Part shown: one piece after another, positions 30,813-36,640 of the stretch
Layout: each line of letters starts with the position of its first letter
Numbering within the stretch: position 1 is the stretch's first letter
From: Komagataeibacter intermedius TF2
GTDB taxonomy: Bacteria; Pseudomonadota; Alphaproteobacteria; Acetobacterales; Acetobacteraceae
Assembly (NCBI RefSeq): GCF_000964425.1
Contig: NZ_BANF01000010.1
Location: forward strand, 62,001 to 126,000
Length of the DNA stretch: 64,000 nt
Direction: 5' to 3'
Notes under the pieces: generated by a model
The model's database searches: none
Seen by the model: only the letters and a program-made list of their open reading frames with translations
What the model was told of the DNA's origin: nothing
Position numbers and translations under genes: made by a program

Positions 30813-31517
30813 ATGCAACGCATCGTGGTTTTGACCGGGGCTGGCATAAGCCAGGAATCGGGATTGCAGACCTTCCGCGGGACGGATGGCCTGTGGAACC
30901 ATGAACGGATCGAGGATATCTGCACGCCACAGGGTTTCCGGCGCGACCCCATGCGCGTGGACCGCTTTTACAATGGCCTGCGCGCGCAATTGCCCGGCGT
31001 TCACCCCAATGCCGCCCATCTGGCGCTGGCCGATCTGGAACGGGCGGGACGGGAGGGCCGCTGGAACGGGCAGGTGACCGTCATCACCCAGAATATTGAC
31101 GACCTGCACGAACGCGCCGGCAGCCGGAACGTCATCCACATGCATGGCGAACTGCTGCGCCTGCGCTGCACAAGCTGCCACGCCACCCCGCAATGGCGGA
31201 CGGACTGTTTCCCCGATACCCCCTGCCCTGCCTGCGGTCAGCCGACGTTACGACCAGATATCGTCTGGTTTGGGGAAATGCCCTATCATATGGACAGCAT
31301 TGCCCGGTATCTGGCTGAATGTGACCTGTTCGTTGCCATCGGCACATCCGGCGTGGTCTATCCAGCCGCCGGGTTTGTGGACAGCGTGGCCGGACATGCG
31401 GATACGATGCTGTTCAACCTTGAAGTCCCACCCGGCCCCTCCGCCTTTGATCAGGCCATTGTCGGTCCCGCGACACGGACCGTCCCGGCATGGACACGCG
31501 ACCTGCTGGAAGCATAA
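30813..31517 (+). CDS. cobB: Sirtuin-type NAD-dependent protein deacylase
   Basis: Removes acyl groups from protein lysines using NAD. GAGISQESGLQTFRG at residues 8-22 is the NAD-binding signature, TQNIDDLHERAGS with the catalytic-loop Asn/Asp follows, and the catalytic His lies in VIHMHGEL. A zinc-binding module has the pairs CTSC and CPAC. At 234 aa it is a short class III (CobB-like) sirtuin. In an acetate-tolerant organism a role in acetyl-CoA synthetase deacetylation is plausible but inferred. A uracil-DNA-glycosylase-fold gene follows after 9 bases. Confidence 0.93.
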   Translation: MQRIVVLTGAGISQESGLQTFRGTDGLWNHERIEDICTPQGFRRDPMRVDRFYNGLRAQLPGVHPNAAHLALADLERAGREGRWNGQVTVITQNIDDLHERAGSRNVIHMHGELLRLRCTSCHATPQWRTDCFPDTPCPACGQPTLRPDIVWFGEMPYHMDSIARYLAECDLFVAIGTSGVVYPAAGFVDSVAGHADTMLFNLEVPPGPSAFDQAIVGPATRTVPAWTRDLLEA

Positions 31518-31526
31518 GGCTGGACC

Positions 31527-32156
31527 ATGGCCGAAACACTGGAAGAACTGCTGGACGCCATCCACGCGTGCCAGATCTGTACCGCTCACCTGCCGCTTGG
31601 CCCCCGGCCGGTGCTGCACGTCTCGCGCACGGCACGACTGCTGATCGCCAGCCAGGCCCCCGGCACCCGCGTGCATGAAACCGGGCAGTCCTTCAATGAT
31701 GCCTCTGGCGACAGGCTGCGTGGCTGGATGGGAATCGACCGTGCGACATTTTATGATTCCAGCCGCATTGCGCTGGTTCCCATGGGGCTGTGTTACCCCG
31801 GCAGGCTGCCACAGGGTGGCGACTGCCCACCCCGCCCCGAATGCGCACCGCAATGGCGCGCGCGCATCATGGCGCAGATGCCCGATATCAGGCTGACACT
31901 GGTGGTGGGCTCCTATGCCCAGCAGCATATCCTGGGCAAGGGACGCGTCAGCGAGCGATGCCTTGATTTCCGGCGATACCTGCCACGGTATTTTCCCCTG
32001 CCGCATCCGTCATGGCGCACGGGGGCATGGGAACGGCGCACGCCCCGGTTCGGCGCGGACGTGCTGCCCGCGCTACGGGCCTGCGTACGGGCCGTTCTGG
32101 CAGGTGAGGACCTGCCGGACATCCCGCCCTTATCCCCCGCCTTCAGTTCACCATAA
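31527..32156 (+). CDS. Uracil-DNA glycosylase superfamily protein
   Basis: A 209-aa protein with the UDG fold: motif A region IASQAPGTRVHETGQSF, and motif B region PLPHPSWRTG near residue 158. In motif A the usual GE/GQ-APG is SQAPG, and the catalytic residue of the well-known families is not evident. Cysteines occur at C15 and C18 and again in the CYPG-to-PEC segment; these might bind an iron-sulfur cluster as in family 4 enzymes, but the spacing is not decisive. Uracil excision is therefore unproven. It follows the sirtuin gene by 9 bases and overlaps the end of marC by 14 bases. Confidence 0.8.
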   Translation: MAETLEELLDAIHACQICTAHLPLGPRPVLHVSRTARLLIASQAPGTRVHETGQSFNDASGDRLRGWMGIDRATFYDSSRIALVPMGLCYPGRLPQGGDCPPRPECAPQWRARIMAQMPDIRLTLVVGSYAQQHILGKGRVSERCLDFRRYLPRYFPLPHPSWRTGAWERRTPRFGADVLPALRACVRAVLAGEDLPDIPPLSPAFSSP

Positions 32157-32880
32157 GCAGGACGGCCCGCGCACTGGACAGGATCACGCCCTGTATGCCG
32201 GTAATCAGGATCTGCACCCCGATCGACAGCAGGATCAGCGCGGCAAGGCGCGAGACAATGCGCGTGCCGGTCGTGCCCAGCAGGCACAGCAGCTGATCGG
32301 CATAGGTATAGGCCGCCCATACAATCGCAGCCACCAGCATGCCCGCCAGTGACAGCACACCATAAAAGACAAGGTGGTGCCCACCCGGTGGCCCCTCCGA
32401 CCCCAGCGCGATCGCGACCGCAATCGTACCGGGACCGACAGTAAAGGGCATGGTCAGGGGGAAAAACGCCTGCCCCATCATGTTGCTGCTGGCCTGTGCG
32501 GTGCTGCCCTGGCTGGCCTGCGCCTGTTTGCGGGCCTCTTCCGTTTCGGGGGCCTGCAGCAGGGCCCAGGCCCGCACTGCAACCACCAGTCCCCCCGCAA
32601 TGCGCAGGGCATCGATGGTGATGCCAAAAAATGACAGAACCAGCCCCCCGATCCAGATCGAGGTCAGCATCAGCATGGCGGAATAGAACGCGACCTTGCG
32701 TGCCAGCACCATGCAGGTCCGCCGGTCATGCCCCGCCGTGACCTGTGCAAAAATCAGCGCCGCACCCAGCGGATTGACAATGGAAAACAGCGCCGGGAAG
32801 GCCATAAGGAAGGCCCCGGACAGGCTGGGCAGTCCCACCACGGTGGAAAAATGGGTCAGCAGCCCCGCATGGCTGGTCAT
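32143..32880 (-). CDS. MarC family integral membrane protein
   Basis: A protein of 245 aa with six predicted helices and the family-typical stretches FSIVNPLGAALIF (helix 1), GGLVVAVRAWALLQ and PLTMPFTVGPGTIA. MarC proteins were first annotated as antibiotic-resistance or amino-acid transporters, but their function is unsettled. The ATG at 32880 has AAAGGGCGG upstream. It is the third gene of a lysK-mprF-marC unit, 36 bases after mprF; its 3' end overlaps the convergent UDG-fold gene. Confidence 0.88.
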   Translation of the reverse strand: MTSHAGLLTHFSTVVGLPSLSGAFLMAFPALFSIVNPLGAALIFAQVTAGHDRRTCMVLARKVAFYSAMLMLTSIWIGGLVLSFFGITIDALRIAGGLVVAVRAWALLQAPETEEARKQAQASQGSTAQASSNMMGQAFFPLTMPFTVGPGTIAVAIALGSEGPPGGHHLVFYGVLSLAGMLVAAIVWAAYTYADQLLCLLGTTGTRIVSRLAALILLSIGVQILITGIQGVILSSARAVLLMVN

Positions 32881-32916
32881 GGCCGCCCTTTCATGCTGCC
32901 GCGAAAGCACATGTCC

Positions 32917-35016
32917 TTATTCTTTCGCCTGTGCCGGGACATGGAACGAGGAACGCATCAGAGTGCGGACCATGGTCAGGTCATCCGCCGCCGCGCACAG
33001 GAATCCCGGATGGGTAGGATGTCCTTCTTCCGTCAGGGGCCACGGTGTCAGGCCCAGTTCGTTATACACAGGCAGCAGGCTGACCCCGACATGCCAGAAA
33101 ACCGGCTGGCAGCCCTCCTGCACCGCAAGGTCGCGCAGCCACCATATGGCGGATGTGCAGTCATCCGCCTTGCCCGCCGGATCACCCAGCCCGACCAGAT
33201 ACGGGCCCAGCCGCACAAACGGCAGTAACGCCTGCCTGCGCGCGCCGGGTATCAGCCCCACCGGCACCGGCGTCATCTGCCCCAGACCATCCAGCGAGTG
33301 GTCAAAGCTGTGATACAGGGCCTGCGTCTGCGCATTCCACGGCATCACCTGAATGCGGCCCGGCCGTACCAGCCGCACGATCGTGACCAGCGCCAGCATG
33401 ACCGCAAGCCCCAGCGTCCACTGGGCAATGCCCGGACGCGTGGCGAACAGCATGATTTCCCACCAGCTTCCACCCGCGGAATCATGCGGGCCCGCCATGA
33501 CCAGAATCACGATGGAACTGATCAGCAGCACCAGCGACACGATGGTGTGGGAGGACAGCGGTTCGCTCATGATCCGTGCATGGCGGTAATACGACCCACG
33601 GAAGGGGGCGATCAGCATGCACACCAGCATGAACAGCCCCGGCACGCCCACCGGCGACCCCCGCAGCAGCGTCAGCATGCACGCCGCCGCCAGAAGCACC
33701 ATTGTGGCCTTCCATGCCAGCGTCACGCGCTGCGACAGGCCAATGCCAAGCCCGATCAGCACCACCCCGATCAGCGACAGCAGGTAGTCCCCCAACGTCG
33801 CGAACAGGGGCTGCATGCGCCCCGCATTCAGCCAGTTTTCCGGGTCCAGCAACGTCAGCGCCAGCAGCAGGCCACCACATAGCGAGACTGCCCCCGTTGC
33901 CACCGCCACGGAAAAATCGGCCTCGCTTTCCCGTATGACCTGGCTGGGGCGGCCCATGCGCGGCCCCCGCACCGGACTGCGCGCACCCACCTTGCGCGAC
34001 AGGGCGGCATCTCCCCGCAGGAACAGTTCATGGGCGGCGAACATGATCCCGGCCACGAACAGGGGCACGATGTAATAGAACAGCCGGAAGATCAGGATGG
34101 CGGTCACGATGCGGGTCGCAGGCACATAGGGGCCAAGTGCGAACATCATCGCGCCATCAAAGACACCAAGGCCACCGGGCACGCTGGCCACAAGTCCTGC
34201 GGTGTAGGAAGCGATATAGATGGCAAGGAACGTGCCGTAATCCAGACCGGGGGCCACGGGCAGGAAAGTGTAGGCAATGGCCGCTGTCGCCGCGACTTCC
34301 AGTGTCGCGACAACCGTCTGCATGATCGCCATGCCCGAGGACGGGAATGTGATCTGCCAGCGCCATATCCGGACCTCGTTCACATAACGGCCCATGGTGA
34401 TATAGGCCAGAACCCCGCCCCACAGCACGATCCCCACCAGCCGCATGACGATGCCGGGCAACGTATGGCCAATGAATGGCACCGTACCGGGTTCCAGCAC
34501 CAGCACGCTACCGATCAGCACTGCCGCCCCCAGCAGGTAGGTGGCGGAACAGAAGGCGATGATCTGCGCGACCTGAAGTGGCTTCAGCCCCCAGTTGCCA
34601 TACAGCCTGAAGCGGACCGCCGCCCCGGAAATGGCGGAAAACCCGAGGTTGTGCGACAGCACATACGAACAGAACGCGGCAAACGCGGTGCGCCTGAAGC
34701 CAAGCGGGCAGCCCACCTGCCGCACCGCAAGCCAGTCATAGAAAGACAGGACCAGATAGGACAGCAGCGTAAACCCCGCCCCGGCCCATAATGTCCCCAT
34801 CGGAATGGCCGCCAGCGCGTGGCTTATGTCGCGCCAGTGCAGGTGGCGTACCTCGCGCTGCACCACCACCACGGCCCCGACCAGCAGCAGCAGGCCCAGC
34901 ATATGCGGCAGGTGCCGCAGCAGGGGATGCCGGGCGAGAGATGATGGCCTGGTCCCGGCCGCATCCCTGTCCTTATCCCGTGGGGAGGGGGGAGTGTGCA
35001 ACGGACGGTCGGCCAT
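32917..35016 (-). CDS. mprF: MprF-like phosphatidylglycerol lysyltransferase/flippase, shortened synthase domain
   Basis: MprF transfers Lys from Lys-tRNA to phosphatidylglycerol and flips the product outward, giving resistance to cationic peptides. The flippase half is complete: more than a dozen hydrophobic segments over about 545 residues, including PGGLGVFDGAMMFAL. The cytosolic synthase part (DUF2156-like) covers only about 150 residues, up to LPVYNELGLTPWP, then ends in an unconserved tail. Usual synthase domains have about 330 residues, so the second acyltransferase fold, which carries much of the catalytic site, is absent. The missing part is not found downstream, where marC starts 36 bases later. 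It may be flippase-only or inactive. It follows lysK by 10 bases. Confidence 0.85.
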   Translation of the reverse strand: MADRPLHTPPSPRDKDRDAAGTRPSSLARHPLLRHLPHMLGLLLLVGAVVVVQREVRHLHWRDISHALAAIPMGTLWAGAGFTLLSYLVLSFYDWLAVRQVGCPLGFRRTAFAAFCSYVLSHNLGFSAISGAAVRFRLYGNWGLKPLQVAQIIAFCSATYLLGAAVLIGSVLVLEPGTVPFIGHTLPGIVMRLVGIVLWGGVLAYITMGRYVNEVRIWRWQITFPSSGMAIMQTVVATLEVAATAAIAYTFLPVAPGLDYGTFLAIYIASYTAGLVASVPGGLGVFDGAMMFALGPYVPATRIVTAILIFRLFYYIVPLFVAGIMFAAHELFLRGDAALSRKVGARSPVRGPRMGRPSQVIRESEADFSVAVATGAVSLCGGLLLALTLLDPENWLNAGRMQPLFATLGDYLLSLIGVVLIGLGIGLSQRVTLAWKATMVLLAAACMLTLLRGSPVGVPGLFMLVCMLIAPFRGSYYRHARIMSEPLSSHTIVSLVLLISSIVILVMAGPHDSAGGSWWEIMLFATRPGIAQWTLGLAVMLALVTIVRLVRPGRIQVMPWNAQTQALYHSFDHSLDGLGQMTPVPVGLIPGARRQALLPFVRLGPYLVGLGDPAGKADDCTSAIWWLRDLAVQEGCQPVFWHVGVSLLPVYNELGLTPWPLTEEGHPTHPGFLCAAADDLTMVRTLMRSSFHVPAQAKE

Positions 35017-35026
35017 GGGCTGGCCC

Positions 35027-36640
35027 TTAGGCCACGGCCCCTTCGTTCCGGGTCAGCGCGGCCTCGATCAGGGCCACGGTTTCCGAAATCCCGTACAGCG
35101 CCACGAAAATCCCGAAACGCGGACCTTCCTTCTGCCCCAGCAGCACTTCATACAGGCAGCCGAACCAGGCCCGCAGCGGTTCGAATCCATGGGTCTTGCC
35201 GATTTCGAACACAAGGTTCTGGCAGGTATCGGGGGAAACATCCTCCCCTTCCAGTTCACGCAGCGCTTCGGCCAGATCAGCCAGCGCCTTGCGTTCATGC
35301 GCATCCGGCGCGCGGTAATGCTTCGTGGGGCGAACGAAATCGGCGTAATAGACGATGGCGTGATCCACCAGACGCGCCAGCATGGGGCAGCTTTCGGGCG
35401 TGGCCTTCGCGTCATAACGCTGGATGAACTTCCACAGCACATCCGGCGTCTCTGCATTGGCGACGGAGGCGAGGTTAAGCAGCATGCCAAACGTGATCGG
35501 GCTGCCCGCATCCGCCGGGATCGTGCCCTTGTGGATGAACCATGCCGGATTGGTCAGCAGGACGGGATCTTCCGCCGCCAGCGTCTTGGCCCTGGCCACA
35601 TGGGCCAGATATTCATCCGTCGCCTTGGGGATCACGTCAAAGAACAGGCGTTTGGCACGCTGCGGCGCATTGAACATGTACTGCCCCAGGCTTTCGGGCG
35701 GGGCATAGCGTAGCCATTCCTCGACCGAGATGCCATTGCCCTTCGACTTGGAAATCTTCTGCCCGTTCTGGTCCAGGAACAGCTCATACGTCAGACCCGC
35801 GGGCGGCTGGCCGCCAAGGATACGGCAGATCCTGCCCGACAGGCGCACGCTGTCGATCAGGTCCTTGCCCGACATTTCATAATCAACGCCCAGCGCATAC
35901 CAGCGCATGGCCCAGTCGGCCTTCCACTGCATCTTGGCATGGCCGCCGGTGACCGGGGTCTCGAACGTCTCGCCGTCCTCATCGGTCCAGCGCACCGTGC
36001 CTGCGACGGGATCGATGGCGTCCATCTTCACCTGCATGACCTGACCGGTGCGCGGGTGGATGGGCAGGACGGGGGAGTAGGTTGCGCGCCGTTCCTCGCC
36101 CAATGTCGGGGCAATCACGGCCACAATCTTGTCATGCACCTCCAGCACGCGTTTCAGGGCCGCATCAAAGCGGCCGCCTTCATAATACTGCGTGGAAGAT
36201 GCGAATTCGTAATCAAACCCGAACCCGTCAAGGAAAGCGCGCAGGCGGGCATTATTGTGGGCGGCGAAGGATTCGTGCATGCCAAACGGATCGGGCACGC
36301 GCGACAGCGGCCTGCCGATGAACTGGCGCAGCATGTCCTGGTTGGGCACGTTGTCCGGCACCTTGCGCAGGGCGTCCATGTCATCGGAAAACGCCAGCAG
36401 GCGCGTGGGCAGGCCGGTCAGCTTCGTGAACGCCTGACGCACCCATGACGTGCGCGCGACCTCGCCAAACGTGCCGATATGGGGCAGGCCCGACGGACCA
36501 TAGCCGGTTTCCAGCAGAACAGGGCGGTCAGCCGTCACCTCACGCGCGGTGTTACCGACATGCGCGGACAGTTTGGCGGCCTCCTCGAACGGCCAGGACT
36601 TCGGGAGGGGCGAAATAAGGGGACGATGCTGTTCTGACAT
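35027..36640 (-). CDS. lysK: Lysyl-tRNA synthetase, class I
   Basis: Charges tRNA-Lys. This is the class I form common in archaea and many alphaproteobacteria, not the class II LysS of E. coli. The class I signatures are visible: a HIGH-like PHIGTF at residues 54-59 and KISKS near residue 297 (QKISKSKGNG). The length of 537 aa is typical. It is the first gene of a unit with mprF (10 bases later) and marC; MprF uses the product of this enzyme, Lys-tRNA. Confidence 0.96.
   Translation of the reverse strand: MSEQHRPLISPLPKSWPFEEAAKLSAHVGNTAREVTADRPVLLETGYGPSGLPHIGTFGEVARTSWVRQAFTKLTGLPTRLLAFSDDMDALRKVPDNVPNQDMLRQFIGRPLSRVPDPFGMHESFAAHNNARLRAFLDGFGFDYEFASSTQYYEGGRFDAALKRVLEVHDKIVAVIAPTLGEERRATYSPVLPIHPRTGQVMQVKMDAIDPVAGTVRWTDEDGETFETPVTGGHAKMQWKADWAMRWYALGVDYEMSGKDLIDSVRLSGRICRILGGQPPAGLTYELFLDQNGQKISKSKGNGISVEEWLRYAPPESLGQYMFNAPQRAKRLFFDVIPKATDEYLAHVARAKTLAAEDPVLLTNPAWFIHKGTIPADAGSPITFGMLLNLASVANAETPDVLWKFIQRYDAKATPESCPMLARLVDHAIVYYADFVRPTKHYRAPDAHERKALADLAEALRELEGEDVSPDTCQNLVFEIGKTHGFEPLRAWFGCLYEVLLGQKEGPRFGIFVALYGISETVALIEAALTRNEGAVA

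Follow-up and report, generated by a model that had tools for sequence, protein, structure and literature searches.

A short MprF of Acetobacteraceae with the flippase region and GNAT fold 1, without GNAT fold 2, encoded beside a class I lysyl-tRNA synthetase gene

MprF has been studied as both a synthase and a flippase. The closest described relatives of the gene reported here are the bifunctional MprF/LpiA proteins (structures of RtMprF, 6lvf, and PaMprF, 9goe), with which its product shares two transmembrane (TM) subdomains, a headgroup acid, a gate pair, an Arg-x-x-Tyr motif, GNAT fold 1 and an Arg that contacts this fold. Unlike them, it has no GNAT fold 2, the essential lysines of fold 1 are replaced and three residues of the headgroup pocket (N117, Y303, S238) are H, F and T; in the loci read, the short gene stands beside lysS rather than VirJ. 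A second group of relatives, the unfused PF03706 flippases of the YbhN/UPF0104, GpgF and HexF type, is described as carrying the core without an active lipid-modifying enzyme, as here (PMC11980842, PMC12713373); in gpgSDF and hexSDF a predicted MprF-type flippase is paired with other synthases, and in that account flipping by gpgF is itself still a prediction (PMC12713373). The short form falls outside the YbhN/UPF0104 group, unlike which it retains TM9-14 and GNAT fold 1, and the sampled unfused proteins lie on the opposite side of the main branch of our tree. A third system, LysX, likewise has a lysyl-tRNA synthetase accompanying an MprF-type protein (PMC2922099), but there a class II LysRS is fused to an MprF-type synthase, whereas here a class I LysRS is encoded by a separate gene and no synthase is present. 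No description of the short form or of its pairing with lysS was found among the titles and abstracts listed by searches of the open literature.

The gene lies in the window, that is, the whole stretch of 64,000 nucleotides of Komagataeibacter intermedius TF2 DNA that was analysed, with the following parts and neighbors:

32917..35016, minus strand: short mprF-like gene, 699 aa, with two MprF-flippase TM subdomains (14 TM by homology) and GNAT fold 1 only
34012..34920, minus strand: residues ~33-335, PF03706 core, TM1-8 by homology, carrying H122, E240, T244, D287, F310, R311 and Y314 at headgroup and gate positions
33361..34011, minus strand: residues 336-552, second TM subdomain, TM9-14 by homology, containing R478
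32917..33360, minus strand: residues 553-699 and stop, GNAT fold 1 with its own ending, GNAT fold 2 absent
35027..36640, minus strand: lysS, class I lysyl-tRNA synthetase, 10 bases upstream (NF001968, 820.2 bits against 648; PF01921, 400.7 bits)
32143..32910, minus strand: marC-family gene, downstream, a neighbor in part of the Acetobacteraceae only (18 of 47 loci grouped)
30813-32156, plus strand: SIR2-family and uracil-DNA-glycosylase-superfamily genes, adjacent

The nearest named relative of the window protein is that of K. oboediens LMG 18849 (97% identical). The results of the profile searches bore out the preliminary description in that the flippase region is whole, since PF03706 matched at residues 40-321 with 53.4 bits, above its cut-off of 33.4, and the alignment with solved full MprFs runs from residue 19-56 to residue 662-665. 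The claim that the cytosolic domain ends after about 150 residues also held: PF09924 matched only at profile positions 42-101 of 298 with 19.9 bits, below its cut-off of 27.5, and NF033480, the model for bifunctional MprF, gave 331.1 bits over profile positions 4-630 of 841, against a cut-off of 600. The gap of 36 bases that had been given between the gene and marC is correct if marC starts at the ATG at 32880, but shrinks to 6 bases with the GTG at 32910 of the ORF list. A second GNAT fold hidden downstream was excluded, as only those 6 or 36 bases precede marC. In relatives, SIR2 and uracil-DNA-glycosylase-superfamily genes recur near marC (clusters c10 and c4).

The C-terminal part of the protein corresponds to the first of the two GNAT folds. 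In a profile-profile comparison its match to the full-length C-domain, which is 337 columns long, covered columns 1-118 (E 3.5e-17, probability 98.9%), and the sole other match had a probability of 0.5%. A Foldseek search with the modelled C-domain returned MprF/DUF2156 structures at ranks 1-17, and a VIA-align comparison, which covered about domain residues 2-98 only, gave 4v36_A as its top match (Z 8.4, 93 residues, 3.2 A) over chain residues 523-620, which are the first fold; the entries ranked under the MprFs were other GNATs at Z 5-6. The model of the C-domain had a mean pLDDT of 60.6, being fair over most of the first ~90 residues and below 50 for most of the rest, which leaves the closing strand and helix without a firm model; the full-length AlphaFold model had a mean pLDDT of 43.2 with a poorly modelled TM region. 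Together, the profile-profile, Foldseek and VIA-align results show that the window protein has GNAT fold 1 and lacks fold 2. All 51 short proteins aligned end before GNAT fold 2, and their C-terminal parts are 136-190 aa long versus 334-416 aa in 25 full-length proteins (16 left from 17 alphaproteobacterial loci tried, L143 having no BLAST match, and nine of the 19 full-length genes found within the family), which shows that the shortness is bimodal and not a matter of chance. The tail had been called unconserved in the preliminary description. This is true of the loop 662-671 and of the end 691-699 (mean commonest-residue frequency in the short proteins 0.25 and 0.21, respectively), but not of columns 672-690 between them, which are filled in the short proteins, moderately conserved (0.44, with no column at or above 0.9) and placed in a strand and a helix by the weak full-length model.

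For S. aureus MprF, Ernst et al. report K547, K621, E624, D731, R734 and K806 as essential (PMC2774229), and we assigned the corresponding alignment columns by motif and spacing. Lys is found at the K547 and K621 columns in all 25 full-length proteins, whereas among the 51 short ones it is found in none and in one, respectively; in the window protein V586 and P660 occupy these columns. Glu at the E624 column is present in 25 of 25 full-length and seven of 51 short proteins, the window protein among the seven, and the D731, R734 and K806 columns are gaps in 49, 50 and 51 of the 51 short proteins. The window protein therefore reads V, P, E, gap, gap, gap at the six columns, with one of six kept. 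A partner synthase encoded elsewhere, which had been put forward earlier, finds no support by homology, as the window gene itself is the sole PF09924 match (E <= 1) in its genome, although a non-homologous synthase may exist. Given that the essential lysines are replaced and that the genome shows no second synthase, synthesis of lysyl-phosphatidylglycerol (LysPG) has very probably been lost in the short MprF. Elsewhere in the family, a PF09924 match reaching profile position 282-298 occurs in only 19 of 299 genomes (loci L032-L050), and the next-best genome after these has a match at positions 26-101 only (E 4.1e-15). In the 19 genomes this full-length domain belongs to an extra gene, for all of them also match the window protein at E <= 3.5e-107, which we took as the short form. 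The full-length genes keep other company. A gene of the VirJ group, described as a LysPG hydrolase family, adjoins the synthase in the full-length loci L113 and L115 (that of L115 being PF06057), and among 19 hand-picked genomes examined VirJ was found in all four with a full-length domain (G143, G016, G236 and G055) and in none of the 15 lacking one. In light of these results it is very improbable that the short MprF still makes LysPG, for example through a pair of GNAT folds 1 in a dimer or together with a separate second half. The conservation of GNAT fold 1 and the dimer interface reported for RtMprF (PMC8131360) would suit such an arrangement, but the two lysines of this fold that are essential in S. 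aureus are gone, the positions of the second fold are gaps, no separate PF09924 half is encoded in the window's own genome, and VirJ is missing from the 15 examined genomes that have no full-length domain.

A homologue of the window protein was found in 276 of 299 sampled Acetobacteraceae genomes and 96 of 102 genera (counting in the still shorter form described below), and 23 genomes gave no match. A census with PF09924 matched 254 of the 299 genomes and none of the other 45; one of the latter, G281, encodes a short protein 83% identical to that of the window, and the profile thus undercounts the short form. Outside the family no short form was seen in a class search of 385 genomes or a phylum search of 299 genomes: near-complete hits (query residue <=62 to >=655; counted by eye from frame lengths, leaving out mid-protein partial hits such as G911:C28, query 381-658, frame 550) lay in open frames of 841-918 aa in 23 of 23 cases and of 852-1752 aa in 29 of 29, respectively, with two hits common to both searches. 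A tree of the flippase core with 92 rows placed 54 short proteins and five of the still shorter form on one side of a branch with 100/100 support and 33 full-length and unfused proteins on the opposite side. Some of the outer rows are long-branched, and the tree has no root; the short side would be a clade only with a root placed among the full-length and unfused proteins. The window gene was also compared with those of 12 named strains by the Nei-Gojobori method, giving dN/dS of 0.03-0.15 for the TM regions, 0.03-0.28 for GNAT fold 1 (both over 12 pairs) and 0.07-0.54 for the tail (11 pairs where computable). The short mprF is under purifying selection.

These data bear on the preliminary suggestion that the gene might be decaying or cut short by an indel. 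A frameshift or assembly error at the stop was excluded, since the nearest orthologues terminate alike and all 51 short proteins, a set that like the 55 loci holds several members per genus and at least one probable same-species pair (L076, L079), are encoded in closed frames. A form found across the family, in a single lineage of the tree and under purifying selection, is not one in decay. An insertion in one Komagataeibacter copy and diverged C-termini in two genera (g30, g66) would fit decay, but with 51 of 51 proteins ending before GNAT fold 2 in closed frames of their own, with the selection seen and with a homologue in 276 genomes, we regard decay or mis-sequencing as scarcely credible, and take decay as refuted for the Acetobacteraceae.

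Domain loss has gone further in genus g68, where the gene at the place of the short mprF measures 328-402 aa from stop to stop and comprises the flippase core only (five of six sampled genomes viewed; loci L149, L151-L154 and L161-L164). This mini form lies directly after lysS in five of five loci. It keeps H122, D240, D287, F310, R311 and Y314 in 5/5 and T244 in 2/5, and is of the size of unfused PF03706 flippases, yet it groups with the short proteins in the flippase-core tree. The one copy scanned (L149) gave 25.9 bits with PF03706, which is below the cut-off, and 148 bits with NF033480 on positions 2-300. The mini MprF represents a further round of domain loss within the lineage of the short form, and its features mark the flippase core beside lysS as the part retained longest. 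Neither this form nor the linkage to lysS appeared in the preliminary description. In the Komagataeibacter genome mentioned above (G135) the short mprF is broken by an IS21 transposase and IstB (L160:3628-5929), making this copy a natural knockout. This interruption shows that the short mprF can be lost and, together with the 23 genomes that gave no match, that its function is dispensable in places. Short MprFs with a strongly diverged GNAT fold 1 were also observed at L148, L150 and L122 (genera g30 and g66; genomes of ~2 Mb), those of L148 and L150 having GP for DP in the DPxG motif. Selection on the g30 and g66 copies is perhaps relaxed.

Residues with roles described for RtMprF (PMC8131360) were mapped through the alignment onto the 51 short proteins. 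Asp234, for which binding of the amino group of the lysyl residue is reported, corresponds to D in 34 and E in 17 short proteins, and the gate residue Glu280 corresponds to D in 47 and E in four, versus E in 8 of 8 unfused proteins. All 51 also retain the counterparts of Arg304, Tyr307 and Gly275, and the window protein has the headgroup acid, the gate acid-Arg pair and the Arg-x-x-Tyr motif as E240, D287, R311 and Y314. Three positions of the headgroup pocket are changed in every short protein, namely Asn117 to His, Tyr303 to Phe and Ser238 to Thr, and none of these residues is unique to the short form, as each also occurs there in some full-length or unfused proteins. Judged by these residues, flipping activity is probably kept in the short MprF. 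The PaMprF study doubts, in what it reports, that lipids pass through the gated core at all (PMC11980842), and hence the retained gate residues are no proof of transport. With regard to docking of the cytosolic part, R478 of the window protein is the counterpart of RtMprF Arg456, which contacts GNAT fold 1. This position is Arg in 51 of 51 short proteins, Glu611 is changed to Asp in 51 of 51 and Asp635 is acidic in 49 of 51, and the other RtMprF interface residues Asp604, Arg639, Arg136 and Thr145 are not kept; as the TM region is badly modelled, the docking is read from aligned residues alone.

We consider it reasonably probable that the short MprF is an MprF minus its lipid-aminoacylating half, retained to serve solely as a lipid flippase or scramblase. 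The aminoacylating half would have been lost in the ancestry of the Acetobacteraceae, presumably from a full-length ancestor. The TM subdomains would move lipid between the leaflets of the inner membrane as those of full-length MprF do, and GNAT fold 1 would persist as a cytosolic part, no longer an enzyme, docked on the second TM subdomain by a subset of the charged contacts of full-length MprF (R478 with D629 and E653). The cargo would probably be bulk phospholipid or else an amino lipid that other enzymes produce, with ornithine lipid as one candidate. Of the three readings in the preliminary description, the flipping of another lipid is thus the best supported, with the nature of that lipid at the level of candidates. 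A specific role in flipping the ornithine lipids that OlsB and its partner synthesize is quite unlikely. PF13444, which we take to be the OlsB-type family, matched in 285 of 299 family genomes including the window's own, and the acid of the headgroup site is kept; however, short mprF and PF13444 are both near universal and their co-occurrence says little, the listed genomes of genera g54 and g96 keep a PF13444 match without a short MprF, and no linkage was seen in the neighborhoods grouped. For the favored flippase or scramblase role there is precedent in P. aeruginosa MprF, which is reported to move many lipids without an energy source in a study that also names unfused MprF-type domains such as YbhN (PMC11980842). 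On the other hand, S. aureus MprF without its C-terminal domain is reported to confer no peptide resistance (PMC2774229), which counts against a resistance role of the short MprF by itself.

A general scramblase does not account for the linkage to lysS. In each of 55 loci, five of them with the mini form, the gene directly upstream and on the same strand is a class I lysS, identified by NF001968 over cut-off and a PF01921 match; the choice of these loci had rested on similarity to the short protein and took no account of lysS. Measured up to whichever start codon is closest to the lysS stop, a choice biased towards small gaps, the distance between the two genes is between -4 and +60 bases in 43 of the 55; for L122 it could not be set, and L095, L100 and L108 are well outside this range. 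Near full-length mprF, the 14 loci with wide flanks (L113-L115, L118, L169-L178) gave no lysS match. Class II LysRS (TIGR00499) was over cut-off in none of 10 hand-picked genomes, and the class I enzyme seems, from these searches, to be the only LysRS. On the far side of lysS a helicase gene (PF13307) is kept in 36 of 47 loci grouped; gene order around lysS is thus well conserved in general, and plain synteny may account for part of the lysS link. In five loci of genera g54, g96 and g24 that have no short gene (L180-L184; genomes G130, G053, G096, G023 and G153) lysS is kept and, by eye, is followed by other genes. If the short MprF is a dedicated flippase or scramblase, its link with lysS would be either inherited or regulatory.

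A functional tie to lysine or Lys-tRNA would make more of this pairing. The short MprF could flip a lysine lipid made by an unrelated enzyme that uses Lys-tRNA, or GNAT fold 1 could sense Lys-tRNA or LysRS and so gate the flippase. The invariable presence of class I lysS upstream, with no lysS match in the 14 full-length loci, the D or E in all 51 short proteins where RtMprF is reported to bind the lysyl amino group, and the known fusion of class II LysRS to MprF-type enzymes (PMC2922099) all point this way. We nevertheless hold such a tie to be unlikely: the window's own genome has no second PF09924 protein, the mini form has no GNAT fold 1, the helicase gene beyond lysS is kept as well, three genera examined retain lysS without the short gene, and, where lysS seems to be the only LysRS, the pairing may merely mean expression with a housekeeping gene. 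A slightly smaller chance is given to the stronger version in which the flippase is coupled to lysine charging, either moving a lysine or cationic lipid from an unrelated enzyme or reading Lys-tRNA or LysRS through GNAT fold 1. This version takes its start from the fixed pair with lysS, and it would explain the re-tuned pocket with H, F and T in all 51 short proteins.

Whichever cargo it may move, the short mprF is real, conserved and under selection, and scores below the cut-off of the model for bifunctional MprF. It may also have a phenotype, by analogy with insertion mutants in an Acetobacter fabarum gene, one of two of which is reported to have persisted significantly less in flies, the other being no different (PMC10269862); that gene, from the same family and compared here by annotation alone, is annotated mprF and read in that report as a LysPG flippase. 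An annotation as 'mprF, phosphatidylglycerol lysyltransferase' in Acetobacteraceae, for example in work on the fly microbiota, may not stand for LysPG. That the short mprF is paired with a class I lysyl-tRNA synthetase gene in all loci tested is a testable puzzle. With the synthase removed and the flippase kept across most of the Acetobacteraceae, the family offers a clean test of the MprF transport domain as a general scramblase, the role that has been proposed for P. aeruginosa MprF (PMC11980842).
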